Of a DNA stretch of 53,171 nt, positions 8,308 through 48,700 are shown one piece after another. The stretch lies in IMG/VR virus record IMGVR_UViG_3300032308_000975, positions 1 through 53,171 of that record; one strand, written 5' to 3'. Position 1 is the first letter of the stretch, and the number at the start of each line of letters is the position of its first letter. Made by a program: the position numbers and the translations under genes. The DNA is from a virus. A model generated the notes under the pieces. The model was given only the letters and a program-made list of their open reading frames with translations, ran no database searches and was not told the DNA's origin.

Positions 8308-8784
8308 TTATAGAACTGCTGTGATTTCTGTTAATACAAGGATATCAGCAGAAGAATCGTTTTCTATATACCATTTATATTTCTTTTGATTATGGTTAGT
8401 AGTTGCGTTTGAATCTTCTGAATTCCAAAGACTGCTAGCAGAATTTAACACAGGCACTGTAGGAAAACCAACAGCCACTCTACGTGTGATTTTTGAAATA
8501 GCTACAGGACTATTGGCATTGCCTCCTACATATCCTTCCATGCGCATTTCTCCTGCAGCGTTAGGTGTTGTATCGACTAGTTTACAGACTTTGTAGTTTG
8601 CTGGTGTAGCGATGTCGCCTACTCTGGCAACAACAAAAGTTCTTGCTCCGCGTTGCTTGATAATAACACCGTCTGTTCTTAGTGAAGAACCGTCATAGAA
8701 ATCTACTCTAATACCTGTTGTGGCGCCTGCGCCTGTGCCGATGACTTTGTCACCGTTTACATCTTTAAATAATGGACGTCCCAT
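8308..8784 (-). CDS. Conserved small structural protein (158 aa)
   Basis: A 158-residue protein starting MGRPLFKDVNGDKVIGTG with a strong AAGGAG ribosome site. It is mostly beta-strand and ends in a short strand (SSADILVLTEITAVL). I do not recognise a named family with confidence. It is the first gene after the late motif at 8869-8878 and the head-gene terminator, and has a leader of about 75 bases with small hairpins, as if it were strongly expressed late. Candidates are a head decoration protein or a small fiber component. Confidence 0.55.
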   Translation of the reverse strand: MGRPLFKDVNGDKVIGTGAGATTGIRVDFYDGSSLRTDGVIIKQRGARTFVVARVGDIATPANYKVCKLVDTTPNAAGEMRMEGYVGGNANSPVAISKITRRVAVGFPTVPVLNSASSLWNSEDSNATTNHNQKKYKWYIENDSSADILVLTEITAVL

Positions 8785-8868
8785 TTGTTTTCTCCTTATG
8801 TTGACGTTCTAGGTCTACGCTGCGGGTTACAGCATAAGTCCGCCCAATGCGGCTCTCATTTAGACAAA

Positions 8869-13036: not shown

Positions 13037-13687
13037 TTAAATGGTAGTTTTTTGAGCATTTTGTTCTGAATAACTATTGATCGGAAATCTTTTAACAAAA
13101 TCCTCAAAAACCAAGTGTTTTAAATTAGGAAGGTTAGCACCTAGTCTATCAGGAACAAATCCACCTGCTTCTATTACTCGGTAAAAATTTATAGTTTTAT
13201 ATTCTTTAATGACTTTTTCTGTTTGGCTGAGCCAGTTTCCGTGATATGTAGCAGCATCTGTGCTCTTTTTATAGTTAAATGTATCAGCATAAACATTGTT
13301 AAATCTGCCTGCTACACCCATATAATCAAAGCCTAGTATATAAATTTCCTTGTGTCCTTGATTACAAGCCAGCCAAAGTGCTGTGGGTCCTGAACTCCAT
13401 CCTTTGTGCGGATTGAAAAAATTTACTCCTGTCTTAACAGTGATACCTTTATTAGGGTTGGTCCATACTTGATTTTGTTTATGATATCCTGTAGCCACTA
13501 TTTCGTTGACCATTTTAACGTCAACTGCTACTAGATAGTGTGGAGTAAATTCTCTATACACAGCATTACAGGCGTAAACTGTGCCTATTCCTAAAAGTTC
13601 TTTGGAATCTATGGATAATCTGCTGCGGCCGTTACCTAATACAAAGGCTGTATTATGCCGGTTGTTCTTGCTGTGGTGGTTGTCCAT
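13037..13687 (-). CDS. DUF115/MptE-like protein in head gene cluster
   Basis: A 216-residue protein. Residues 14-30 (AFVLGNGRSRLSIDSKEL) form a glycine-rich nucleotide-binding-like loop, and residues about 112-140 (GWSSGPTALWLACNQGHKEI, then YILGFDY) are typical of the DUF115 group, which includes MptE-like pterin diphosphokinases, flagellin glycosylation factors and sialyltransferase-like proteins. The assignment rests on motif memory only. The start at 13687 overlaps the upstream gene by 35 bases in another frame, and the conserved part begins 13 residues in. A nucleotide-sugar or pterin-related role, or a lost-activity relative, are all possible. Confidence 0.6.
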   Translation of the reverse strand: MDNHHSKNNRHNTAFVLGNGRSRLSIDSKELLGIGTVYACNAVYREFTPHYLVAVDVKMVNEIVATGYHKQNQVWTNPNKGITVKTGVNFFNPHKGWSSGPTALWLACNQGHKEIYILGFDYMGVAGRFNNVYADTFNYKKSTDAATYHGNWLSQTEKVIKEYKTINFYRVIEAGGFVPDRLGANLPNLKHLVFEDFVKRFPINSYSEQNAQKTTI

Positions 13688-15624: not shown

Positions 15625-18516
15625 TCAGGCTGCGGCCACTGAGAACATATCACCACCTAGACTCTTTTGGACACCTAGTTGTTTTCTGTTCAAATCCACT
15701 ACCTGTCTATTAGTTGCCACTAACTGTGCCATCTGCATATTTAACGATTGTAAGCTAGCCACCACGTCATTAAGGCTAGCAACACCGCCCGCTCCCGGAG
15801 CTCCTGCTCCTGATGCTGCGACAGTTGTGGCTGGTTTGGTTTCTACAGGTTTGGCTGTGGCAGCTGCTACCTGTGTGGAGGACGGAGTAGCTGCTGTCGA
15901 TCCCCCGGTCATAAATCCCTGTGCGAGTTGGGCACGTTTGGCAGTTTCTGCTTGGCCACCAGCATAACCAACTGCTTTGCCTACTGCGGCAATATTGGTA
16001 AGATCTACACCTTTCTTTTGTTTTTCTGCGAAATAGGCTGCTGCGATTTTGGAAGCTATAGCAGGATCGTTAGCTAAATCTGGATTTTTAACTAGGTCAA
16101 CTCCGATCATATCTCCAAATTTTTTGTAGTTATCTTTACCTGTTAACTGAATTAGACCTCTGCCACGATACTTAAATCCTTCATCTTCTCTATTGCCCAT
16201 TCTACCGCCATAGATAACATTACCTACAGCTTCTGGACCTTTGGCAGCCACTGCCTCGGCTTCTTCTACAGTTTTAAATCTAACTTTATTTCCGCCTTTG
16301 TTGCCTGCGCCATACAACTCAAATAATTTCTTACCGCTGTATTTTAAATTTTCATCTTGTGGCTTGAATCCAGATTCGGCTTGTACCTGTGCCATGATAT
16401 TGGCTACAGCCTTGGGATCTGTGATTCCTTGAGATGCTAACTGACTTCTCAGTGCGTCTTGTGTGGCGCCTTTAGTCATAGCTGCCGGAGCAGGACCTGC
16501 GGCTGTTGCCCCTGGTTGTTGTGCTGCAGAACCAGCACGTCTAGCAGCACTTTCAAATAATTTTGCAGGACTAGTAAAGTCGTATTTGGCAGTGGTTTCT
16601 ACTGCTTCTTTGGTCTGCTTGTTTTCCTGTTGTTTTAATTCAGTGCTTTTTTCAGTGGCTTTTGTATTTTCTTCTTTGGCTTTGGCCTCGGCCCTGTCTT
16701 TTTTACGTTTTTCAGCTTCTTCTTTGGAAATACCGCCCATCCATTTAGGTAGCAGTGACAATAATCCGTCTTTAAAATCAGCCATTCCTTCCCAAAGATA
16801 CTTAAGGCCTTTGTAGACAAGATATACTCCAGCAGCCAATGCGATAAACTTGATAGCAACCATAGCCATCGGTGCCATCATTAACATTTCTTTCATTGCT
16901 TTGATTTTGCTAACCACAGTAGCATATATTACTACCGCAGCTAATGCTCCTAGAGCCACACCCAACACCTGCATATTATCGCCCATAAACTGGAATACTG
17001 GTACCAGGAATGTTGAAATAAAGCTGACCATACCTTCAAATACACTCATCATTCCTTCTAGGAGACCACTAGTGGCTAGAAGTTTTGTAAATCTATTGCT
17101 GACCTGAGATATTTGTTCTTGATATTCTTTTAACTTAGCTGGATCTAATCCTTGAGCTTGAAGTTCTGCTGCTTTCTTTTCTTGTTTTAATCTTTCTTCT
17201 TCAACTTGCTTAAGATTCTTTTGACGAGCGGCAGCATCCATAGCCCCGATCATAAACTGTTTTTGTGCGTCTGTACCAAAATATGAAAGTGTTTCACCTA
17301 GGCCAGACTTAGCTACTCTAGAAGCTTCAGCTTGATAGGACGCATTGATCCTAGCTGCTTGATCTGCTCCCATCTTTCCTGTGGCACGGATTTGTTTATT
17401 CAATCCCATCATCTGACCAGCAGTCTCTGGCAAGAATGCTAATGCTGCTTTACCTGCTTCAGAAGTAGCAGTACCGGTAGCTATAATTTCCTTCATACCT
17501 TCTCTGTGTTCAGCAGGTATGCTATCCATTAATTTGTTTAATTCTTCTTGACTCTTGGCATCCATTTTAGATGCTATCATTCTGAACTGAGCATCTTTCA
17601 TTCTTGCCGCTCTAGCATCTTCTAATTCTTTTTTACTCTGTCCTGTTAATTTACTAACAGCATCTAAATTCTTTAAGTATTGTCCAGTTGATTCGATCAA
17701 CTGCGCATTATTCATTCCTTGAAGATGACCAGTCTTAGCCAGTCTGCCGGCATAATTGGCCATGCCTTCGTTGATCTGTTCTGTAGAATATCCCATACGA
17801 GCCAGTTGATCACCTAGCTCAGTGTCTTTGATTCCTCTACCTAACTGTGCTAATCTTTTAGCACCTTCAGCAGTAGATCCACCTAACAATGCTAGACTTT
17901 GACCAGTTCTAGCAATGATTCCGCTGAACTGGTCAAATGTTAATCCGGCACCAGTGGCCGCATCAATCATGTCAGTGATACTGCCTCCAAAATTCGCTCC
18001 TACTTCTGCTGCCTGTTGGAATGATTTATAAGTTTTTTCTGCAGCACCAGCTACCGCACCAAATACTGATGCTAGTGCTCCGCCAACTACAGGAATTTGT
18101 TGTAATGATGCTGCCGCTTGGGTTAGACTATTGCCAGTGTTAGCCAAAGCAGAAATCATACTGGTGAGTTTAGTTGCTGCTCCCATGGCCGCGCCGGCCA
18201 TAGCACCTAGAGCCTGTGAATTTGCTTCGGCTTGTTTTAATTGATCTTCTTCAGCTTTGGCACGAGTCGCAGCACGTTTTTTGCCTTCGTCTAATAATTT
18301 TAGTTCGTCTTGGCGTTTTTTGTTTAGATCTTTGGTTTGATCTGCTAGCCGTTTGAGTTCTTTTTCTAGTTCGGCCTGCGCTTTACCGCCTTTACCGCCT
18401 TTGCCACCCGCAGACATGGCCATCATTACCGCGAGAAGTTGCTTTAACGTGGTTTCGGTTGCCGCATTATTAAGTTCTATTGGATTGCCGCCAAGATCGC
18501 CGTAGACGTCTGCCAT
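15625..18516 (-). CDS. Tape measure-like protein with GH19-type lytic domain
   Basis: A 963-residue protein. Residues 1-110 are a charged coiled coil; about 110-490 are Ala/Gly-rich and helical, as in tape measure proteins. About 510-578 hold hydrophobic, membrane-like segments (LGVALGALAAVVIYATVV, MVAIKFIALAAGVYLVYKGL). Residues about 680-870 form a chitinase-19/lysozyme-like domain with AQVQAESGFKPQ, the likely catalytic Glu, and EGFKYRGRGLIQLTGKDNYK. The C-terminus has a short coiled coil. Size, Ala/Gly-rich helices and hydrophobic segments fit a tail-length ruler that enters the cell envelope; the lytic domain would open the wall. It lies divergent from a tail gene with a frameshift site, as tape measures lie beside chaperone genes. 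T4's own ruler, gp29, is unrelated in sequence as far as I can see. Confidence 0.8.
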   Translation of the reverse strand: MADVYGDLGGNPIELNNAATETTLKQLLAVMMAMSAGGKGGKGGKAQAELEKELKRLADQTKDLNKKRQDELKLLDEGKKRAATRAKAEEDQLKQAEANSQALGAMAGAAMGAATKLTSMISALANTGNSLTQAAASLQQIPVVGGALASVFGAVAGAAEKTYKSFQQAAEVGANFGGSITDMIDAATGAGLTFDQFSGIIARTGQSLALLGGSTAEGAKRLAQLGRGIKDTELGDQLARMGYSTEQINEGMANYAGRLAKTGHLQGMNNAQLIESTGQYLKNLDAVSKLTGQSKKELEDARAARMKDAQFRMIASKMDAKSQEELNKLMDSIPAEHREGMKEIIATGTATSEAGKAALAFLPETAGQMMGLNKQIRATGKMGADQAARINASYQAEASRVAKSGLGETLSYFGTDAQKQFMIGAMDAAARQKNLKQVEEERLKQEKKAAELQAQGLDPAKLKEYQEQISQVSNRFTKLLATSGLLEGMMSVFEGMVSFISTFLVPVFQFMGDNMQVLGVALGALAAVVIYATVVSKIKAMKEMLMMAPMAMVAIKFIALAAGVYLVYKGLKYLWEGMADFKDGLLSLLPKWMGGISKEEAEKRKKDRAEAKAKEENTKATEKSTELKQQENKQTKEAVETTAKYDFTSPAKLFESAARRAGSAAQQPGATAAGPAPAAMTKGATQDALRSQLASQGITDPKAVANIMAQVQAESGFKPQDENLKYSGKKLFELYGAGNKGGNKVRFKTVEEAEAVAAKGPEAVGNVIYGGRMGNREDEGFKYRGRGLIQLTGKDNYKKFGDMIGVDLVKNPDLANDPAIASKIAAAYFAEKQKKGVDLTNIAAVGKAVGYAGGQAETAKRAQLAQGFMTGGSTAATPSSTQVAAATAKPVETKPATTVAASGAGAPGAGGVASLNDVVASLQSLNMQMAQLVATNRQVVDLNRKQLGVQKSLGGDMFSVAAA

Positions 18517-18583: not shown

Positions 18584-19456
18584 ATGTCAGATCAAACCAT
18601 ACCGCAGCCTACGAAAAAGCCAATGAATAACCCTTTGGCTAATTATTTCCGGCAGCCAAAACTCTATATCAGATTGCCCAGCCACGGTGAATTTTATCCC
18701 GACGGCAGTTTAGATAAAAGCGAAATAGACGAATATGCCGTCTATGCTATGACTGCTAAGGATGAACTGATGTTTAAAACTCCAGACGCCTTAATGAACG
18801 GACAAGCTACCGTTGAAGTAATCAAGAGCTGTGTTCCGTCTATTAAAAATCCTTGGCAGATGCCCAGCATCGATCTAGATGCTGTGCTGATAGCTATTAG
18901 ATTAGCGACCTACGGAGAGAATCTAGATGTTAGCACATCGTGCCCTAGCTGCGGCCATATTAATGACTATATCTTAAATCTATTACAGTATCTTGATACA
19001 GTTACAAATTTCAAATACGAAGCTAGTATTAATGTAGGAGAATTAACTGTAAACATTCGTCCTTACAGTTATAAAGAACTTAATAAAACAGCACTCAAAA
19101 CTCTCGAACAACAGAAAATTTTCCAAATAGTCAATGACGATAACATGCCTGACGAAGAAAAAGTTGAAAAGTTCGGAGACAGTTTTGTTAAGCTAACTCA
19201 GCTCACTGTAGACACAGTTATCGGTTGTATCCGCAGTATAGACACACCTAACGGTAGTGTATCTGATAGCGAAATGATCAAAGAATTTATCGAAAATGCT
19301 CCCAGCGACGTGTTTACAAAAATCAGCGATCACGTTACTGATATGAAAGATCGTATGAGTCTAAAAGTTCAAAACGTTGAATGTGTAGAATGTCAGCATC
19401 AATGGACAGTTGATGTTTCCATGGACCAGACAAATTTTTTCGCCAAAGGGTCTTAA
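18584..19456 (+). CDS. 26: T4 baseplate gp26-family protein / probable tail assembly chaperone, short form
   Basis: A 290-residue protein of the T4 gp26-type baseplate family: YFRQPKLYIRLPSHGEFYPD near the start, MTAKDELMFKTPDALMNGQA, and VEVIKSCVPSIKNPW. Two Cys-x-x-Cys pairs (CPSC near residue 119 and CVEC near 267) probably bind zinc. The ATG has GGAG at a good distance and a consensus late promoter upstream. The frame ends in TAA at 19454-19456, but a slippery run at 19432-19441 sits five codons before that stop and the -1 frame stays open to 19668, so an extended form of about 361 residues is likely. It sits directly beside the tape-measure-like gene, the usual place of tail assembly chaperones. 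Confidence 0.85.
   Translation: MSDQTIPQPTKKPMNNPLANYFRQPKLYIRLPSHGEFYPDGSLDKSEIDEYAVYAMTAKDELMFKTPDALMNGQATVEVIKSCVPSIKNPWQMPSIDLDAVLIAIRLATYGENLDVSTSCPSCGHINDYILNLLQYLDTVTNFKYEASINVGELTVNIRPYSYKELNKTALKTLEQQKIFQIVNDDNMPDEEKVEKFGDSFVKLTQLTVDTVIGCIRSIDTPNGSVSDSEMIKEFIENAPSDVFTKISDHVTDMKDRMSLKVQNVECVECQHQWTVDVSMDQTNFFAKGS
19432..19441 (+). promoter_or_regulatory. Probable -1 ribosomal frameshift site (AAATTTTTTC)
   Basis: In the zero frame the bases read A AAT TTT TTC, which holds two overlapping X XXY YYZ heptamers, A AAT TTT and T TTT TTC. Both are of the classic -1 slippery type. A possible stimulating hairpin begins 6-9 bases downstream (19448-19477). Confidence 0.75.
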
Positions 19457-19668
19457 CTCAGCCTCAGGAAGAGATCCTAGCATACGTACAACAAATTGAA
19501 AAAGAGGCAAACGAGATCAAACGTGATATACTAAAGATCTGTTGGTATATGCGTGGCATGAGTTATCAAGAAGCATTATCAATGAGCCACGATGAAAGAA
19601 AAATCGTCGGTGAAATAATTAAAGAAAATCTAGAAACTACCAAGAAAAGCGGACTGCCTTTCTTTTAA
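19438..19668 (+). CDS. -1 frame extension of the gp26-family protein
   Basis: After a -1 shift at 19432-19441 the frame continues FRQRVLTQPQEEILAYVQQI and on for 76 residues to TAA at 19666-19668, ending in KENLETTKKSGLPFF. In this frame the upstream stop is at 19411-19413 and the first ATG comes only at about 19549, well inside a helix that looks part of one domain, and there is no ribosome site ahead of it. Expression through frameshifting is therefore more likely than a separate gene. The segment is helical and charged, with a WYMRGMSYQEALSMSHDERK motif that would suit contacts with the tape measure protein, as in the longer chaperone form of phages such as lambda. Alternatives are a separate gene with a weak start or a sequencing error. 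Confidence 0.7.
   Translation, partial: FRQRVLTQPQEEILAYVQQIEKEANEIKRDILKICWYMRGMSYQEALSMSHDERKIVGEIIKENLETTKKSGLPFF
19448..19477 (+). other. Possible frameshift-stimulating stem-loop
   Basis: GGGTCTT (19448-19454) can pair with GAGATCC (19471-19477) in seven pairs, two of them G-U, around a 16-base loop. The 6-9 base spacing from the slippery run is what -1 frameshift elements usually show. The fold was not computed. Confidence 0.4.
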
Positions 19669-22791: not shown

Positions 22792-23200
22792 TGCGTTATC
22801 GCTTACGCTCAACGCATTTTTTCTTTCTGGAAATGTTTTGTAAGATAACTGCGAAGCAGTTTTTAGCATTATCCAGATCGTTCAGTCATACTTAGCCCGT
22901 TGCCGGGCTAGATGTGAACATTATCCGAGTCGAACAAGTCATATAACAGTAGAGCATTACAGAGGCGGTCAGCCGGTACCTCGAGCTCCGTCTTAGATCT
23001 GACGGCGGACTAGATCTGCCTGTTATCGCAAACCGTAGTCGTGGGTTATTAACCCTCTTTTAGCCTTTAAAATCAATACTTTTTATTACAGTAAACCGGT
23101 TATAGGCGTATCCGATCGTCGTCCTGTCAAGGATAGTACTGTAGTTACCCTTCGCCAATTTAGGGGCCTTACCGTGCGACATCACCACGGATTTCGGGCA
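22771..23200 (-). ncRNA. Candidate structured non-coding RNA of about 430 bases
   Basis: No convincing gene fits between 22735 and 23234, yet the stretch holds many perfect stems. Minus-strand pairs: 23190-23186 with 23176-23172 (CCGTG/CACGG); 23143-23137 with 23093-23087 (TACAGTA/TACTGTA, enclosing TATCC/GGATA); GGGTT-AAT-AACCC near 23050; 23026-23020 with 22949-22943 (ATAACAG/CTGTTAT), enclosing CCGTC/GACGG (23005-22988); TAGCCCG-GCAA-CGGGCTA (22910-22893), nested in GTTCA/TGAAC; AACTGC-TTC-GCAGTT (22861-22847); TGCGTT/AACGCA (22816-22792); and the terminator. A TATAAT lies at 23208-23203. No tRNA, tmRNA or group I intron core could be made out. Orientation is inferred from terminator, -10 box and neighbours. 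Function unknown. Confidence 0.55.
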
Positions 23201-23202
23201 TC

Positions 23203-23208
23203 ATTATA
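23203..23208 (-). promoter_or_regulatory. TATAAT -10 box before the RNA candidate
   Basis: Minus-strand TATAAT, an exact sigma-70 -10 hexamer, 27 bases after the stop of the GIY-YIG gene. No good -35 box is seen 16-18 bases upstream, so activity would need an activator or an extended element. Confidence 0.3.
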
Positions 23209-23234
23209 TTCACCGATGCGGGTTTTTTTGGCGA

Positions 23235-36770: not shown

Positions 36771-39700
36771 ATGGATAAAGATATTTTTCCAGAAAGTAAT
36801 ATTCCAGTACGTAGATCAAAAGATCTTCTGCCTGAAATTTTCAAGACAGAAAGTAATAATAAGTTTCTTGGAGGGTTAGTTGATCCTCTGATACAGCCCG
36901 GCGTACTAGACAAGAAAGTCGGATACGTTGGAAGAAGATATGGAAAAACATTTAGGTCTTCAGATGTTTATCTTGATAATGATCAAACATTAAGAAGCAG
37001 ATATCAATTAGAACCTGGCGTTATTGTAAGAAATGATGTCAATGTGGAAGGATTTTATGATTACATTGATTTTAAAAATCAATTAAAGTTTTTCGGTAAT
37101 ATCGAAGAGCGAGACGATCTAATTACCAGCCAGCATCATTATACTTGGAATCCTCCTATAGACTGGGACAAGTTAATAAATTATAGAGAATATTTTTGGG
37201 TACCGGACGGTCCTCCAGGAGTTAGGATACAAGGTCAATCTCAAAAAATCGTAAGCACATATAGGGTAACCTTGGGTGCTAATTCCTACATATTTTCTCC
37301 GGACGGACAAACTAATAATCCCACAATTACACTATATCGAGGACAGACTTATAAATTTAATCTTAATGTACCAGGAGATTTCTTTGTAATTCGTTCCAAT
37401 ATAGACACAGGTTCTTTAACATACAATCCTATCGTGGGATACCAAAAAGGACAAATAGTTCTATACGGGAATAATTTATATCAGGCACAGGGAAATGTTC
37501 CTATCGCCGGACTAAACGCACCTTTAGATACCACCAGCGGTATTTGGAAACTATTAGAAAATTTACAAGAACAAAAACAAGCTTTAGATTATGATCAAGG
37601 TGTGGTTAACAATCGTTCAGAGAAAGGCACTGTTATATTTGATGTTCCTTTTGATGCTCCCGATACCTTATTTTATCAAAGCTTGACTGATCCGAATAAA
37701 TTTGGTAAATTCGTCATTGATAGTGTAGAAAATAATACGAAAATAGATGTATCTAATGAAATATTAGGTAAAGCGGACTATCTCAGCAGCAACGGAGTAC
37801 AATTAAGCAACGGAATGATTCTAAGATTCGAAGGATTAGTTACTCCTGTAAAGTATGCTTCGGGTTCTTGGTTAGTTGAAGGTGTAGGAGAAGAAATAAC
37901 TTTAACAAAATTTTCTGATCTGTCAGTTTCACAATTATTAAGCACAATATCTCCAGAAATTTTATTTGACGACGGCGGATTTGATACTGCTCCGTTCGAT
38001 GATGCCGCGGCCTATCCTGCTGCTAAAGACTACATAACAATTTCAAAATCTAGCAAGGATTCAAATCCTTGGAGCCGTTATAACAGATGGTTTCATAGAT
38101 CGGTATTAGAATATTCGCATAATTTTAATAACAGCAATTTTGATTCGCCCGAATCGGCAAGAGCAAAAAGGCCGATTATAGAATTTAAACCTAATTTACA
38201 ACTATTCAATCATGGAGCTGTAGCCAAGCAAAGTGTGGATTATGTTGATGATTTTACTACAGATGTGTTTTCTTCTATTGAAGGCGCTGTTGGTTATAAT
38301 ATAGATAACGAAGAATTGTTCGAAGGTGCTCGATTATTAATTACAGCAGACACTGATAGATTAGTTAATAACAAAATTTATACAGTTAGATTTATAACAC
38401 ATAATAACCGTAGACAGATCTCGTTGATACCAACAGAAGATTCAGAAACGGCGCCGGGCGAATGCGTATTGGTACAAAGGGGTTTAACAAATAAAGGCCT
38501 AATGTTCAATTTTGATGGCACAAGATGGAACAAGAGTCAATTGAAAACAACAATTAACCAGGCTCCTTTATTTGATTTGTTCGACGAGAATGAAATAAGT
38601 TTTTCTAATGCGGAAACCTATCCTGTTAGTTCTTTCGCAGGATCGAAATTAGTATCCTATAAAACAGGTGTAGGACCTAACGATTCTGAATTAGGATTTC
38701 CTATCAGTTATCTTAACATAGACAATGTCGGTGACATTCAGTTTGATAATAATTTTGAACAAGATATTTTTACCTACAAAATTAATCGTGTAACTTTTTC
38801 TAAAAAGTTATCTTTGGGATATTTTAAACTTAATCTTGTTTCTGGGACACAATATTCTAATGGGTGGATTCCATTAGATAACACTTTTGTTCAGCCTATT
38901 ATCGAAACAGTAGTAGCAGAAGATTCAAACACCATAGAGTGCGATATTATAGATTGGGATGCCGTTAGTGATGAACAGATTAAAAAATTAGTAATTTACA
39001 AAAACGGTATTAGGTATGATGTGCCCTATACAAGAACAGTTAATCAATTTGTTTTTGAAAAAGATTTTGTTAAGGGCGATTCCGTAACATTTAGATTATA
39101 CGCCGACTTCGATCCAAAATTTGGTTATTATGAAATACCTATCGGATTAGAAAGGAACCCACTTAATAATGAAATTGACACATTTACACTAGGACAGGTC
39201 AATGATCACTTGTTGTCGGCTTTAGATTTATTTGACGATTTTGAAGGAATTTATCCAGGGCAAAATAACCTAAGAGATATATCCGGATATCAACCCTTAT
39301 GCAGAAGATTTGTGAAACATTCGGGATTATCTCCTTTAGCTATATTATTATTGTGCGACAAGCAGGTTAATATTATAAAGTCTATACAATATTCTAGACG
39401 GGAATACACAGATTTTAAAAATAATTTCATTAAATTATCAGATGAAAGATATACAGGACAAACTGTAGTTGAACTAGTAGATGAAATATTAGAAGAAATG
39501 GGCAGAGCTAGATCTGCTGCTAATTCTTTCTCTAATTCAGACATGGTAGGTAGCGGAGCCTATACAACCATAGAATATCAAGTAGAGGACGAGGGAATTA
39601 AAACATTTGCCTTGTCTTCTAAATTTGATTTGAATACATTGAGCAATAAAGCGGTTTATGTTTATATTAATGGTCAACAAATCTTACACGGTAGAGATTA

Positions 39701-42700
39701 TGAATTTAACTCTATATTCGGTTTTGTTAATATCAAAGCTTCTGTAATAGAAGGAGATAAAATCGAAATCCGTGAATATGTTACAACAGGATCTTCATTT
39801 ATTCCACCAACGCCTACTAAATTAGGGCTTTATAAAAAGTACACTCCAAGAAAATTCTTAGATGATACTTATAGAATTCCAAAAGAAGTTATTCAAGGAC
39901 ACGATGGCAGCATCACTATTGCCTACGGTGATTTTAGAGACGATGTTTTATTAGAATTAGAGCACAGGATTTATAATAACATCAAACAAGAGTATGATGA
40001 AACATTATTTGATATTGACGCAGTGCTTGGTGGATATTACGACACAGGACTATTCAATAAAAAACAAGTTGATAATATTGTCAACAGAGATTTCTTATCA
40101 TGGATATCAGGAACTACCACTGATTATGTAAACAATATCTATTTTGACAGCGAGGATAGCTATACCTATACCTATTCTAACATGACAAACATAGAGGGCA
40201 CGAAAGCCTTGCCAGGATACTGGAGAGGAGTGTACCAATGGTATTATGACACAGATCGACCACATCGTTGTCCTTGGGAAATGTTAGGTTTTTCGGAAAA
40301 ACCAGATTGGTGGGAAGAACAATACGGCGCTGCTCCTTACACTAGCGGCAACTTGCTATTATGGGAAGATATTAGAGACGGAATCATTCGTCAAGGCGCT
40401 AGATCGGGAACGTATCCTAGATATCAAAGACCTAGTATCCTAAGTCATTTACCAGTTGACGGTGACGGAAACTTGTTAAGTCCCTTAGATTCTGGATTGG
40501 CTGCGAATTTTTCTCTGATTAATAATCAAGGTAGATTTTTTCTAGGGGATGTTAGCCCTGCGGAATATGCTTGGAGATCAAGTTCTGAGTGGCCTTACTC
40601 GATATTGACAGTGCTTTGTTTGTTAAAGCCTTTCGAATTCCTAACAGATAATTTTATTAAATCATCGGTAAGAAATAATAAGCTAGGTCAAACAGTAGAC
40701 AAAACCAGCGGCCTCTTTACAAGAATAGAAGATATAACTAGAGATGATTTTGATCATCTCAAGAGTTCTGGTTTGTGTAGGTTCGTTATAGATTATTTGA
40801 AAGGTACTTCAACTCCAACATCTATTTTAGCTGATAAGATTAGTAGATTGGATGTAAATCTTTCTTATAGAATGTCGGGGTTCGTTGATCAACAACAGCA
40901 AAAATTTATATTAGATAGTAAAAATCCTAAATCGCAATCTAGCAGTATTTTTATTCCAGTAGAAAACTACGATATTATTTTTAATGTTAGTAGCCCTATC
41001 GGCAGCATAACATATAGTGGAGTTATAGTAGAAAAAATCGACAGAGGATTTAAGATGTCGGGATATGATGCCTTAGATCCGTTCTTTGAATATTATCAGC
41101 CAGTGGCGAGCCAGCAGGATCCTTTGATATCTATAGGAGGAGTCAGCGAAAATTTTGTTGAATGGAACGCAGAAAAATTTTATAACAACGGAGTAGTTTG
41201 TAGATATAATAGCAATTTTTATAGAGCACTTAAGAGCCATACCAGTGGAGATACTTTTGATTTATCAGCTTGGAAACAACTACCGGCTCTGCCAAAAGTA
41301 GGATCTATTGATGCTTTTAAGAGGAAAAATTTTAATAAAACTAAAACCAAGATTTTAGTTTATGGAGAAATATTACCGGATGTTCAATCAGTAGTAGATT
41401 TCTTTTTAGGATATGAAGAATTTTTAAAATCTAAAGGGCTAGTATTTGATGGATATAATATAGAGACACAAAGCCCCAAAGATTGGTTTACATCTGTAAA
41501 AGAGTTTATGTATTGGACCAAACATAATTGGGATGTTGGTTCACTGATTACTTTTAGTCCTATAGCCGATAGAATAGAGTTTAATATTCAAATAGGTGTA
41601 GCTGACAATCTTTTAGACAGCTTCTACGGGTATCAAGTTTTAAAGAATGACGGCCTGCCTCTTCGTCCTGAATTTATTAATGTTACTAGAGATTTTCAAA
41701 AATTAGTTGTCAGTACTACCAACACCAACAACGGGATTTATTTCTTTAAAGGGCATTTAGTTCTTAAAGAACATGTAACTGTATTTGATGATCGAACAGT
41801 TTTTAATGACGTAATATATGATAAACCTACAGGGTATCGACAAGAGCGTATCAAGAGTCGAGGGTTCCGCACAGTTGATTGGGACGGAGACTATACCAGT
41901 CCCGGATTCTTGTTTGATAATGTTAATATTGATGTTTGGCAACCCTTCACTGATTATAAATTAGGGGATATAGTTGCTTATAAATCTTTCTATTGGACGA
42001 GCCAGACTAATCAGTTAGGATCAGAAGAGTTTAACGATACACTATGGACCAAACTAGATTCCACACCGCAGAAAGGTTTGATCAGTAACTTTGATTATAG
42101 GATTAATCAGTTTGAAGATTATTACGAAGCAGATGCCGACGGAATAGGATCTAGCCAAAGAGATCTATCCAGACATTTGATAGGGTATCAATCTAGAGAT
42201 TATCTACAACAGCTAGCAGAAGATCAAGTTAGTCAGTTTAAGCTATATCAGGGATTTATCAGAGAAAAAGGTACGGCCAATGCTATAGTCAAAGTATTTG
42301 ACAAATTAAGTGAATCCTCAGACGACAGCATAGTGCTTAACGAGGAATGGGCATTCCAGGTTGGAAATTTTGGAGGCACTGACCAAACTACAAGATTTGA
42401 ATTTGAAATTAAAAAAGATGAGTTTGAAATTAATCCGCAGCCAATATTCATAACATTATCAGAATCGACCGGCCCCGAAGTAGATCAGTATGTAAGGATT
42501 CCATTTTCTAAGTTTACATTGTCTCCTAACCCTTTCACGACTAATTTAAATCCGGTATCGGAATATGACAAATTAAACAGATCTGCTGGATATGTTAGTT
42601 TCAACGATGTAGATTATACGATTAAGAATAGAGACGATTTATTAAACTTTGACATAAACACAGTCAAAGAAAACTCTTTGTTCTGGGTCACGTTTGACTT

Positions 42701-45700
42701 AAATTCGTGGACGGTGATCAAATATAATGAACCTCCCACATTGAGGATCATTTCAGTATCTGCAGTAGACGAAGCAAATAAAATTGCACGAATTACCTTT
42801 AATTCACTGCATACTATTGCTGTTGATGATATAATCGGTATTAGAGATGTATCCGAGCTCACAGGATTTAGAAAAGTGGTAGCTCGAGGAAAAACCTATG
42901 TTGATGTAAAATATACGGCAGTTAAGCCCGAAATGGAAGATAGTACATCTGCAGCTGTTGGAATATTTTCAGATGTACGATACACTTCTTATGACGACAT
43001 CGACGAAGAATATATCGCAGCATCCGGTAGCGGAACTAAATTTTGGATAGATGACAACAGCACCGGAAAATGGACAGTCATAGAAAAAGTTAGACAGTAC
43101 TCAAACATTGATTTAGTCAACTACGGAGTAACGAATCCTATAGGTCTGGGCTCGGCAGTTGTTTATATTGAAAACTTAAAACAGGTAGTAGCAAATTTAA
43201 CAGCCTCGGGTTATGTGTTAGTTTATACAGAAAGCACAGATTCGATGAGACTAAGACAGATTATTTCTCCTCCGTCGGGTTTCGAAGCCGCACTACTAGG
43301 CTGCTTCGGCGAAGTTTTAACAGTCAGTCCTGATTATAGGTTTTTAGTGATAGGATCTCCTCTGGCTAGCGGAGTAAACAGTAGATTTAGAGGAAATCTA
43401 AGATTAGATGTTCAGTATGTTCCAGACGACATAGTTTTCTATCAAGATAAAACCTGGAAAGCAGTTAACGATATTCCTAGTTATGACGGAAGCTCGATAG
43501 ATTTTGCTTCAGAAGATTGGACTCCCGCTACCATAATAGAAGCAGTTTCTAATGGAGTGGGTACAGGATTTGCCGAGCAGGGGATGGTATCTGTTTATCG
43601 TTATGCAGATAACAGATGGGAAAATACTGTAAACATTCTCAGCCCGAGACCGTCTCAGGGAGAACACTTCGGTAGTGATATATCTATAGGTGTTTCCGGC
43701 AGCACATATTACATGGCTGTGTCTGCTAAAGATTCTATGGGAGGAAAAGGCAGAGTATATCTATTCTATTACACTGGAACGGAATGGAAACAGTTAGAAA
43801 ATCCTAATTACGCTGGAATTTATTCTACAGTAGAAGCTGTACCATATCCCATCGGAACTATCGTATGGGATGAAGATTTTCTTTGGGAAGCAACAGCTAA
43901 TCAGCAAGGCGCAGCTACCAAACCTAGCGACAGCGTTAGCGGTTGGAAAAAATTAGATCCTGTATCTACAGATTGCTCTTTGCCTAATATAATTTCAGTA
44001 GCAGACGATGACGGTTCTACTTTGATGTCCGGTATATTAACAGCAGACCAATTAGCCGAAGCAGTTAAAGAAGGTGATCAGTTCGGATTCGAAACCGCTA
44101 TGAACTATGATGGTTCTATTTTAGTAGTAGGAACTCCTAACAGCGACGGGCAGTTTTACAATAATTACAAAGGTTTATACAAGTCTTATCAAGAATATAA
44201 ACATGGAGATGTGGTAAAATCTGATGACAACTATTATAGATTAGGATCACCCGATTCTACCGTAGATTCGACGAACGCCATAAAGGGAGTGGATCCAGCA
44301 TCAGGAGAACCTTGGTTTAATATCACAGATTCTACTCCTACAGGTCGTACAGGAAAAATTTATATCTATAAGAGAACTGGTTCTCTATTCTTGTTAAAAC
44401 AGATAATTACGGCAGATAACTTAGCAGACTATAGCGATTTACCAGCAGGTGATACAATAGAGATAGGAGATCTGTTTGGATATTCTGTTGATATAGATCC
44501 TTCAGGAGCAACGATAGCAGCCAGCGCCCCTAGAGCCGACCTCGGAGGTCAGACACAGGGAGTAGTTTACATATTTGAAACAGCTAGTACAGAAAGTATA
44601 GAATATAGATTAAAACAAAAGATACAAAGTTTTGAAGAATACAATAACGAATTCTTTGGATCAAAGATCAGAATCAGTCCAGGATTAGAAAAAATCGTAG
44701 TCGGTGCTAAGAATGCAGGATATACTCTGATCACAGGGTTTGAAGCAGGTACAACTTTTGATAGAAATAAAACAAGATTTTCAGATTCTCAAGGATATCC
44801 AGGACAGGTGTATGTTTATGAAAACAAAGCTGGAAAATATCTGCTAACAGAAAAACTTGAAACAGACTTTGTTCGTAATGAATCTTTTGGTTATACTTTA
44901 GACTGCACTAGATCTACGATAGTAGTAGGTTCACCTAACTATAAACTCGATAATGAACGAGTCGGAAAGGTAAGATTATTTAGAAAGGTGTCGGGTAGCA
45001 GTAGCCTTAAAACTTTAGCCACACAACAGCCTTTAATCAATATAGATCTGTTAAAAAATATTGAACTTTATAATATTGACGATCATACAAGAATAGCAGA
45101 ATTAGATATTGTTGATCATTTTAAATTAAAGATATTAAATGTAGCTGAACAAGAATTATCTTTCAAGGTACCTTATGATCCTGCTTTCTATGATAAAGGT
45201 ACAGAGGAAGTAACCGTTGATGCTTCTCAGCCTTGGTATGAAAAGAATGTAGGAAAATTGTGGTGGGATCTCAGCACAGTCAAATTTAACTATTACGAAC
45301 AAGGTGACGATGCCTATAAGATAGGCTATTGGAATTCGCAATCTATAGGATCCTCGGTGGATGTCTACGAATGGATCGAATCAGTATTGCTGCCCTCAGA
45401 ATGGTCTATCTTAGCAGATACTACAGAGGGATTAGCAGAAGGTATATCCGGACAGCCGAAATATCCCAACAATTCAGTTTACAATACTAAACAAATTTTT
45501 AATCCTAATACTGGACAAGAAGTTGGGACCAAATATTATTATTGGGTAAAAAATAAAACCACTTTACCTTCTTTCGAATTAGGAAGAAGAATGCCGGCTG
45601 CTTCTGTAGCAGATATGATTAATAATCCAATTGGTTCAAATATTCCGTTTATTTCAATCATAGCTGCTGATAAATTTTTAGCTTATAATATTAGAAACAT

Positions 45701-48700
45701 TTTGACAACAGATAGAACTCTATTAAATGTTGAATATAATAAGGATCCTTCAAAATTAAATTTAGCACATAATGAATATCAGCTGCTTACTGAGGGAGTT
45801 TCTTCGAGCAATCCTACAGAGTATTTAGAAAGGAAATGGATTGACAGTTTAATAGGGTTCGACGAGGCAGGAAATTCAGTACCAGATCCTAAATTAGCTG
45901 AAAATCAAAAATACGGTTTACGTTTTAGACCTAGACAAAGTATGTTTGTTGATAGGATCAAAGCGATAAAGATAGTGATCGACCGTGCCAATAATATATT
46001 GGCCAGCAAACCGTTTTCTGATCTAATAGATCTTTCAAATTTTAATTCTAAAGATCCTTTACCGTCAAAACCTTTAAATGCTTTTGACTTTGAAGTAGAC
46101 GATTATGTTGATCTACTTCAAGTTGGAGTTGTGAGAGTAAAACAAGCGGTGTTTAGGGCTAATATAATTAATGGAAAAATTGATACCATAGACATTGTAG
46201 ATCCGGGTTTTGGTTATAGAAATGCTCCTTTTATAGAAATTGAAGGAACAGGATCGGGAGCTACAGCAGAAATAACCGTAGACGCTCAGGGAAGAGTTAA
46301 TTCTATTACTGTTACTAACAAGGGCAGAAAATACACCTTCGCTAATATTAAAATCAGACCTTTCTCTGTACAGGTTATTTCGGACTCCACAGCCGACGGA
46401 AGATGGAGTATCTATTCTTGGGATCAACAGAGGAAAATATTTTACAGAAGTAAATCTCAGGCCTATGACGTTTCTAGATATTGGTATTATATAGATTGGT
46501 GGAAAGATGGATATGATGAGGATTCTCGTATCGTAAAAGAAATCAATAATTTTTACGAAGAAAGCTACTATATTATCAAAGAAGGGGATCTATTACGTGT
46601 AAAAGAATATGCCAGCGGCGGATGGGCGGTATTTAAGAAAACAGCTCCAGGACAGGGAGAAGTGTCCGGAGACTATCAATTAGTAGGCAGACAAAATGGT
46701 ACTCTGCAGATCTCCTCTTCAGTATACGATACAAGCTCTGCTGCTATAGGATTCGATAATGTAGGAACATTCGATTCTGATCTGTACGATCTTCAGCCAG
46801 CTAGGGAATTGAGAATATTATTGAAAGCGATCAAAGAAGATCTTTGTGTAGAAGATCTTGCTGTAGAATGGAATAATATGTTTTTTGCCTCAATAAGATA
46901 TTCATATTCAGAACAGGATTTTATAGACTGGGCATTCAAAACTAGCTTTGTCAGCGCAGTGCATAATGTCGGGCCATTATCTCAACCTGTAAATTATACT
47001 AATGATAATCTTTTAGCATACCAAACATATATCGAAGAAGTAAAACCTTTTAGAACAACAATTAGAGAATATACCAGCAGGTATACAAAGATAGAAGGAA
47101 CAGGGTCTGCCGTATCGGATTTTGATTTACCGGCCGATTATTCGACAGCAGCCGAACTGATACTACCGATAAGGGGCTCGTTTGATAAGACTGGTCAGTA
47201 CCCCTGGCAGTATTGGTATGATAACAATGGTTATTCGATCGTGAGAATCGATGTATCTGATGCCGGCGGAGACTATACTAACCCACCTAAAGTATTGATA
47301 GAGGGCGACGGAACAGGTGCTACTGCCCGAGCATTCGTATCTAGCCAGAGGGTATCGGGCATAGAAGTTTTAACTGCAGGCGAAGGATATAAAACTACTC
47401 CAACAATTTATCTAGTTGGCGGAAACGGGACTTCGACCCGGATCGCTAAAGCAGTTGCCATTCTGGGCGATACCAAAGTTCGATCATTCAATGTTGGAAT
47501 GAAATTTGATAGAATAAGCAAATCAGGAATATTCCAAAACTTCCAACAAACCCAAACATTTGTAGCTACGGGATTAACATCTGTATTTGATTTAAATTAT
47601 CCTCCTACAAGAAATAAAGATAGAATATCAATTAAGAAAAATAATCAAACGGTCCTGAACAGCGATTATAATATATCACTGTTTAGTGTTTATAACGATG
47701 CTTATACTGTACCTAAAGGTAGATTAATTTTTAATTCATCACCGATAGCCGGAGATGTTATAGAAATAACCTACGACAAGAATACCTTAATACTAGATAG
47801 CGTAAACAGAATAGATAGATTCTATGCTCCTATGCCGGGGATGAAAGGCAAGGAAAAGAATCAACTTATGACAGGTATTGATTTTGGTGGAGTACAAATA
47901 CAGGGTACAACATTTGATGTTACCGGGGGCTGGGATGCTCTTCCTTGGTACGTGGACAGTTGGGACAGCGTAGAGTCTAGCGCAGATTATTATTACATCG
48001 CCGACGGCAGTACCACATTTATCGTGTTACCGTTTACACCTAAAGAAGGTGAAATATGGACTATCTACCTTAAGAGGTTATCCGAAAGTAGACCTACAAG
48101 GATCGATGATCCTTATTGGGGAAAGTATGACGGGTCAACAGTACAGCCCAACGGCAGAGTAACTGCTCCTAAAAATGCTCGCATGCCGACAATAATAGGG
48201 GACGGTTCTACTAATGTCGTAGAGCTACGGGATTCTGTAACAGATTTAGCATATGTTGAAGTTGATGCTGGAGATACATTAATATTTAGACCAGTTGAAA
48301 GCGACGGATCTGTTGTTATCACAGATGTTAATCTTTTAGATACACGTATTAGTGGGGGATCTTTATCAGCAGCAGCAGGTGCTTATCAAACAGCCACTGG
48401 TTTAACTCCCGAGGAAATAATAATTTCCGGTGATAAGTTTATCAGTCCGGATCAGGTTCCTGCTCCTGAAGAAAACGTTCCTGGACAAATACTCGACAGT
48501 TTAAGCATCAAAGTCTTTAATTTAACTAATGAAGCTGGTATACCTTTACAATCTAAAGTTGTAAGGAGTGATGGAAATACATTAAGGTATGATATTGGAT
48601 TAAAAGTTATAGAAAACAATTCAGTTGCTGTTTATGTTAATAAAATTAAACAGGAACAGAATGTAGATTATGAAGTTGATTTGGCAACCGACACTGTGCT

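Follow-up and report, generated by a model that had tools for sequence, protein, structure and literature searches.

A conserved slip site and a selected -1 frame point to two protein forms from a gp26-family tail gene of T4-like phages

A slippery heptamer (T TTT TTC) followed by an open -1 frame was found near the 3' end of a gp26-family gene in a viral DNA of 53,171 nucleotides (IMG/VR record IMGVR_UViG_3300032308_000975; this whole stretch is called the window), and T TTT TTY with an open -1 frame behind it was present in 184/184 non-redundant relatives, among which gp26 identity falls to about 24%. Judged by comparison of these genes, the gene is very probably decoded in two ways, giving forms of 290 and 361 residues that would act as a pair of tail assembly chaperones. 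The comparative evidence supports -1 programmed ribosomal frameshifting about as well as can be attained from sequence alone, since the heptamer is invariant, the -1 frame selected and the hairpin covarying, with no general second start and no indel artefact. The frameshifting event itself, its rate and the chaperone function are inferred.

The gp26-family gene and its predicted products

The short form (290 residues, 18584–19456, + strand) was assigned by Pfam, PHROG and an AlphaFold2 model. It matched the T4_baseplate profile (PF12322) over residues 59–286 with E 2.8e-20 and 73 bits (cut-off 24.5), the end of the profile coinciding with the slip site, and it was assigned to PHROG 150, baseplate hub. 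Two CxxC pairs (C120/C123 and C267/C270) look like putative zinc sites. By codon, the 3' end of the gene reads ACA AAT TTT TTC GCC AAA GGG TCT TAA. The heptamer T TTT TTC occupies 19435–19441 (+), with zero-frame TTT TTC encoding Phe285-Phe286, and overlaps A AAT TTT at 19432–19438; the zero-frame stop TAA (19454–19456, +) falls within the hairpin region. Both heptamers stand in the zero frame five codons 5' of the stop, as the first-pass annotation had stated and as can be read directly in the sequence; the slip site and the -1 frame, open from 19414 to 19668, were confirmed, and all coordinates and numbers of that annotation hold. The -1 extension (19441–19668, +) consists of 75 codons plus a stop and would form the C-terminal domain of the long form. 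After slipping on T TTT TTC the junction is predicted to read ...DQTNFF followed by RQRVLTQPQEEI..., and 286 + 75 residues computed from the sequence give the long product of 361 residues that had been proposed. The sole other AAATTTTTTC of the window was located at 13415–13424 (-), inside an ORF at 13037–13687 (-).

Three further elements of the window were recorded. An Rfam freshwater-2 RNA (8782–8854, -; 57 bits, cut-off 49.9) extends to the start codon of a 158-residue ORF (8308–8784, -), for which no PHROG match was found. A full-length Rfam Polynucleobacter-1 RNA (23084–23224, -; 54.5 bits, cut-off 37) is carried on this T4-like phage contig. Following the baseplate genes, an ORF of 4656 residues (36771–50741, +) contains an FG-GAP repeat, weakly matches a carbohydrate-binding module and probably encodes a giant fibre or adhesin.

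Gene order and comparison with lambda

The adjoining gene on the other strand, described in the first-pass annotation as tape-measure-like, lies 67 bases away at 15625–18516 (-) and encodes a protein of 963 residues with a C-terminal chitinase-like (GH19) domain (PF00182; PHROG 181, 'endolysin'). On position and kind it was provisionally taken to be the tape measure. In RaK2 the corresponding position is occupied by a gene whose annotation notes similarity to a tape measure, and the gene directly downstream of gp26 is a tape measure by name in SP-15 and an endolysin by name in S-CAM22 and BRock. In SP-15, S-CAM22, BRock and Mel-JY01, gp26 is upstream on the same strand (the Mel-JY01 neighbour is a large unnamed gene); in the window and several jumbo phages it is adjacent to the tape-measure-like gene but divergent from it.

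In phage lambda, a short and a long chaperone (gpG and gpGT) act on the tape measure (PMC5009743). The window gene resembles this system in having a short and a -1-frameshifted long form, a place beside the tape measure gene and a heptamer close to where the short ORF ends. It differs in that no sequence or solved-structure match between gp26 and gpG/gpGT was found, gp26 is larger and carries the two CxxC pairs, and its tape-measure-like neighbour is divergent on the opposite strand, unlike the lambda arrangement. A family of -1-frameshifted tail assembly chaperones that includes lambda gpG/gpGT was reportedly described by Xu and colleagues in 2004. The AlphaFold2 model of the gp26 part (pLDDT 86) resembles gp26-type models of other phages; no PDB match to the models of the gp26 part or the -1 domain was obtained at E <= 0.001, and no relatives of solved structure were found by sequence profile.

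T4 gp26 and gp51 as separate short and long forms

Over the full length of PF12322, T4 gp26 matched with E 8.8e-64 and T4 gp51 with E 3.9e-52, gp51 carrying about 48 extra C-terminal residues; on these matches the two are paralogues, one short and one long. The same layout was found in CC31, AM101, an RB49-like phage and phiAS4, and no slip site was found in the gp26 genes of any of these four or of T4. At the place of the Phe-Phe pair, T4 reads TTC TTT, CC31 reads TTC TTC and AM101 reads TTT GTC; the pair is gone in AM101, the RB49-like phage and phiAS4. To judge from these codons, the Straboviridae with a separate gene 51 (loci L021 and L231–L234) have lost the slip site.

The C-terminal domains were linked by profile comparison: the gp51 C-terminus with the cyanophage -1 domain (P 1.5e-6), the cyanophage domain with that of a branch which uses the +1 frame, described below (P 1.7e-5), and the domain of this branch with the -1 domain of the window (P 6.7e-7). 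Compared directly, gp51 and the -1 domain of the window gave a weak match (P 0.0034), so the link goes through intermediates. T4 and the window thus have in common the PF12322 domain and, in gp51, a gp26-like part joined to a C-terminal domain profile-linked to that of the window; they differ in that T4 has two genes without a slip site, a duplicated fused gene replacing recoding. On the simplest reading, two genes of T4 would supply the short and the long form, for which a single gene suffices in the window. It is how widely the frameshifting form occurs, rather than a tree, that suggests that this form is ancestral and that the two separate genes of T4 are derived. According to a 2016 review of recoding, conservation of the tail-gene frameshift is wide in long-tailed phages, 'except T4' (PMC5009743).

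A role of gp26 and its long form in tail assembly, as chaperones, is likely from homology and context. The suggestion of the first-pass annotation that gp26-type proteins are chaperones made in two forms is indirectly supported, because T4 gp26 and gp51 are short and long paralogues with the same two parts and because gp51 is absent from the T4 virion (PMC3004832). It is improbable that frameshifting is real and that gp26 and the long form are instead structural parts of the baseplate hub: the Pfam and PHROG names do say baseplate hub, and older genetic work assigned T4 gp26 to the hub (PMC3004832), but in the table of that source both gp26 and gp51 appear as hub assembly chaperones, chaperones generally show this pattern of a short and a long form next to a tape measure gene (PMC5009743), and the chaperone view was also reached by Vladimirov et al. 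2022, as cited by later papers.

Conservation of the slip site

The slip site was inspected in six IMG/VR contigs and in 12 phages that range from Sinorhizobium phage Phosso to Klebsiella phage RaK2. Zero-frame T TTT TTC was present in all of them (as the variant T TTT TTT in XacN1), and the homologous -1 frame of these 18 sequences begins with FF, followed by R in nearly all. For a wider survey, loci were found by peptide patterns located far from the slip site and not touching it. T TTT TTY was retained in 218/218 loci whose record includes the slip site, the zero-frame stop following the second Phe at a distance of 2–12 codons. Past this stop the -1 frame stays open for 170–227 bases, barring contig ends. 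The alignment of related phages named in the first-pass annotation as a check therefore shows the slippery run and the open -1 frame to be kept, and the arrangement is not due to chance.

Removal of near-duplicates left the 184 non-redundant loci, cyanophage-like contigs among them; relatives that share the slip site are not independent of one another, and substitution at their synonymous sites is close to saturated (median pS 0.70). T TTT TTY was seen at 0/124 other Phe-Phe pairs of the same genes. The first Phe codon of the slip site is TTT in 184/184 loci, compared with 25% TTC among Phe codons elsewhere in these genes. The preceding codon may encode Asn, Ser, Ala, Asp, His, Thr, Arg or Tyr and ends in T in 184/184. 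Family-wide conservation is limited to the second heptamer, T TTT TTC; A AAT TTT is not conserved across the family because it hinges on this preceding, variable codon.

The downstream stem-loop

A stem-loop was predicted at 19447–19478 (+), with an eight-pair stem (19447–19454 with 19471–19478) separated from the heptamer by 5 bases, and is a probable stimulator of frameshifting. The possible hairpin noticed earlier after the slip site is thus present; it is weak in the window alone (z -1.3 and -1.4 in two tests, slightly better than shuffles) and strong across the clade. In an alignment of 40 distinct sequences selected for sharing the motif, 95.9% of the stem cells were paired, compared with 27–55% for slid versions of the stem, and three stem pairs were changed on both sides, i.e. 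compensatory. A synonymous-codon test, in which codons were shuffled within the -1 frame and the folding of the native 45 bases was compared, was more telling, since the members of the alignment had been picked for the shared motif. Mean z of the native fold was -2.5 in the window clade (16 loci; control stretch -0.7), -1.8 in other IMG/VR loci (68; control stretch 0.0) and -2.3 in cyanophage-like loci (75; control stretch -0.4). In jumbo isolates the signal was weak (mean z -0.8, 22 loci). By these folding comparisons the stem-loop of the clade is stronger than coding requires and carries compensatory changes.

The T6 run could also give rise to the long form through transcriptional slippage, RNA polymerase adding one U so that some mRNAs encode it; the same run would suffice, and the reading frame would shift by the same net amount. 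This is very unlikely, as the run is held at exactly six T in 181/184 loci and a selected stem-loop five bases past the heptamer suits ribosomal frameshifting. Transcriptional slippage usually requires longer runs.

The -1 frame as a coding region

For the 16 members of the window clade, median pN of the -1 region was 0.23 and median pS 0.71. Its dN/dS, from the 29 pairs unsaturated at synonymous sites, was 0.04–0.35, similar to that of the gp26 body. By these substitution measures the -1 region truly codes for protein and is under purifying selection. The AlphaFold2 model of the domain is all-helical (pLDDT 92). The earlier observation that the -1 frame lacks an early ATG was borne out, the first start codon being the ATG at 19549, where the first long helix predicted in the -1 domain (residues 11–39) ends.

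That the -1 region is instead a separate small gene, translated by termination and re-initiation through coupling and without a fusion protein, is, like transcriptional slippage, very unlikely. The annotation of several phages does list the -1 part as a separate small ORF, and a start codon overlaps the zero-frame stop in 21/184 loci (ATG in 8, TTG in 8, GTG in 5), a share which implies that re-initiation is not the general route. In Pseudomonas phage Cygsa01 (L236, 1072–1982) the gp26-family gene is without a slip site and the second part starts at a TAATG overlap; in this lineage the two parts may have become separate, coupled genes. Against re-initiation, no ATG, GTG or TTG at all was found in the second part of Paride, the conservation of T TTT TTY would be left without purpose and T4 gp51 is a fused protein. 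For the window, an independent start or coupling was rejected, no start codon occurring until domain residue 39. A sequencing error or gene decay, i.e. a single true frame with an indel in the T-run, has a negligible probability although the site is a homopolymer run, and was refuted by the identical arrangement in isolates and independent assemblies, with both parts under purifying selection.

A branch with the second part in the +1 frame

In gp26 relatives of Microcystis phage Mel-JY01, zero-frame YTT TTT T[GG/AC] CCT was found in 56/56 non-redundant loci. A homologous C-terminal domain lies in the +1 frame, which a +1 or a -2 frameshift would reach; it is joined at TTTTTTTGGCCT, and no downstream hairpin was found in this branch. 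Its loci are L030 (2890–3970) and L237–L316 (ORFs mostly from 1501). The C-terminal domain is likewise in the +1/-2 frame in SP-15 and LIS04. LIS04 (TTT TTT AGT) re-pairs poorly at +1, which favours -2 slipping. Slipping by -2 is used by phage Mu.

Discussion

The preferred reading is -1 ribosomal frameshifting. Most ribosomes would terminate at 19454 and release gp26 (290 residues). A minority, stalled by the stem-loop at 19447–19478 with two Phe-tRNAs on T TTT TTC, would slip back by one base and read the -1 frame to 19668, which would add a helical domain of 75 residues and give the form of 361 residues. Together the two forms would serve the tape measure protein and the hub as a tail assembly chaperone pair. 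As with lambda gpG and gpGT, the gp26 part common to both would attach to the tape measure, and the additional domain of the long form would bring in the tail component that comes next.

Cyanophage gp26 genes (e.g. S-CAM22) are alike in T TTT TTC, the -1 frame domain and a stimulatory hairpin; they differ in a shorter gp26 and in annotation, the small -1 ORF being listed separately as gp51 or 'baseplate hub assembly catalyst'. The TAC locus of Vandenendeviridae and Andersonviridae (phage Adele, PMC12846349) similarly has a conserved poly-T -1 frameshift near the end of TAC-N, with a GTTTTT motif and in another myovirus lineage. Tail assembly chaperones were named in T4-like phages by Vladimirov et al. 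2022, a work cited by both PMC10885494 and PMC12846349. According to the account of that work in PMC10885494, some T4-like phages carry two genes, one short and one long and fused, in place of frameshifting; PMC12846349 gives the same citation for the poly-T slip sites that TAC-N genes of T4-like phages have. From these citing papers, gp26/gp51 as chaperones and poly-T slip sites in those of T4-like phages had evidently been proposed in 2022, and the general suggestion of the first-pass annotation is therefore not new. What the present analysis adds is a broad survey together with tests of structure and of selection.

The balance tips slightly towards a single chaperone family that has switched its decoding in three ways: -1, +1 or -2, and gene duplication. 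The -1 mode would comprise T TTT TTC and a stem-loop in the window, cyanophages and jumbo phages; the +1 or -2 mode would use the invariant YTT TTT T[GG/AC] CCT without a stem-loop in the Mel-JY01 branch; and in T4 duplication would have replaced recoding altogether. A switch in the direction of frameshifting within one family is unexpected and is the part most worth following.

The tail-gene frameshift was already known from other tailed phages, and the evidence given here spans a very large set of relatives. T4 would be the exception within its own family, as the surveyed loci suggest that most relatives outside the Straboviridae keep the frameshift. In hundreds of genomes the second part is either missed or listed as a hypothetical gene of its own; gp26 in its long form merits annotation as a joined gene.
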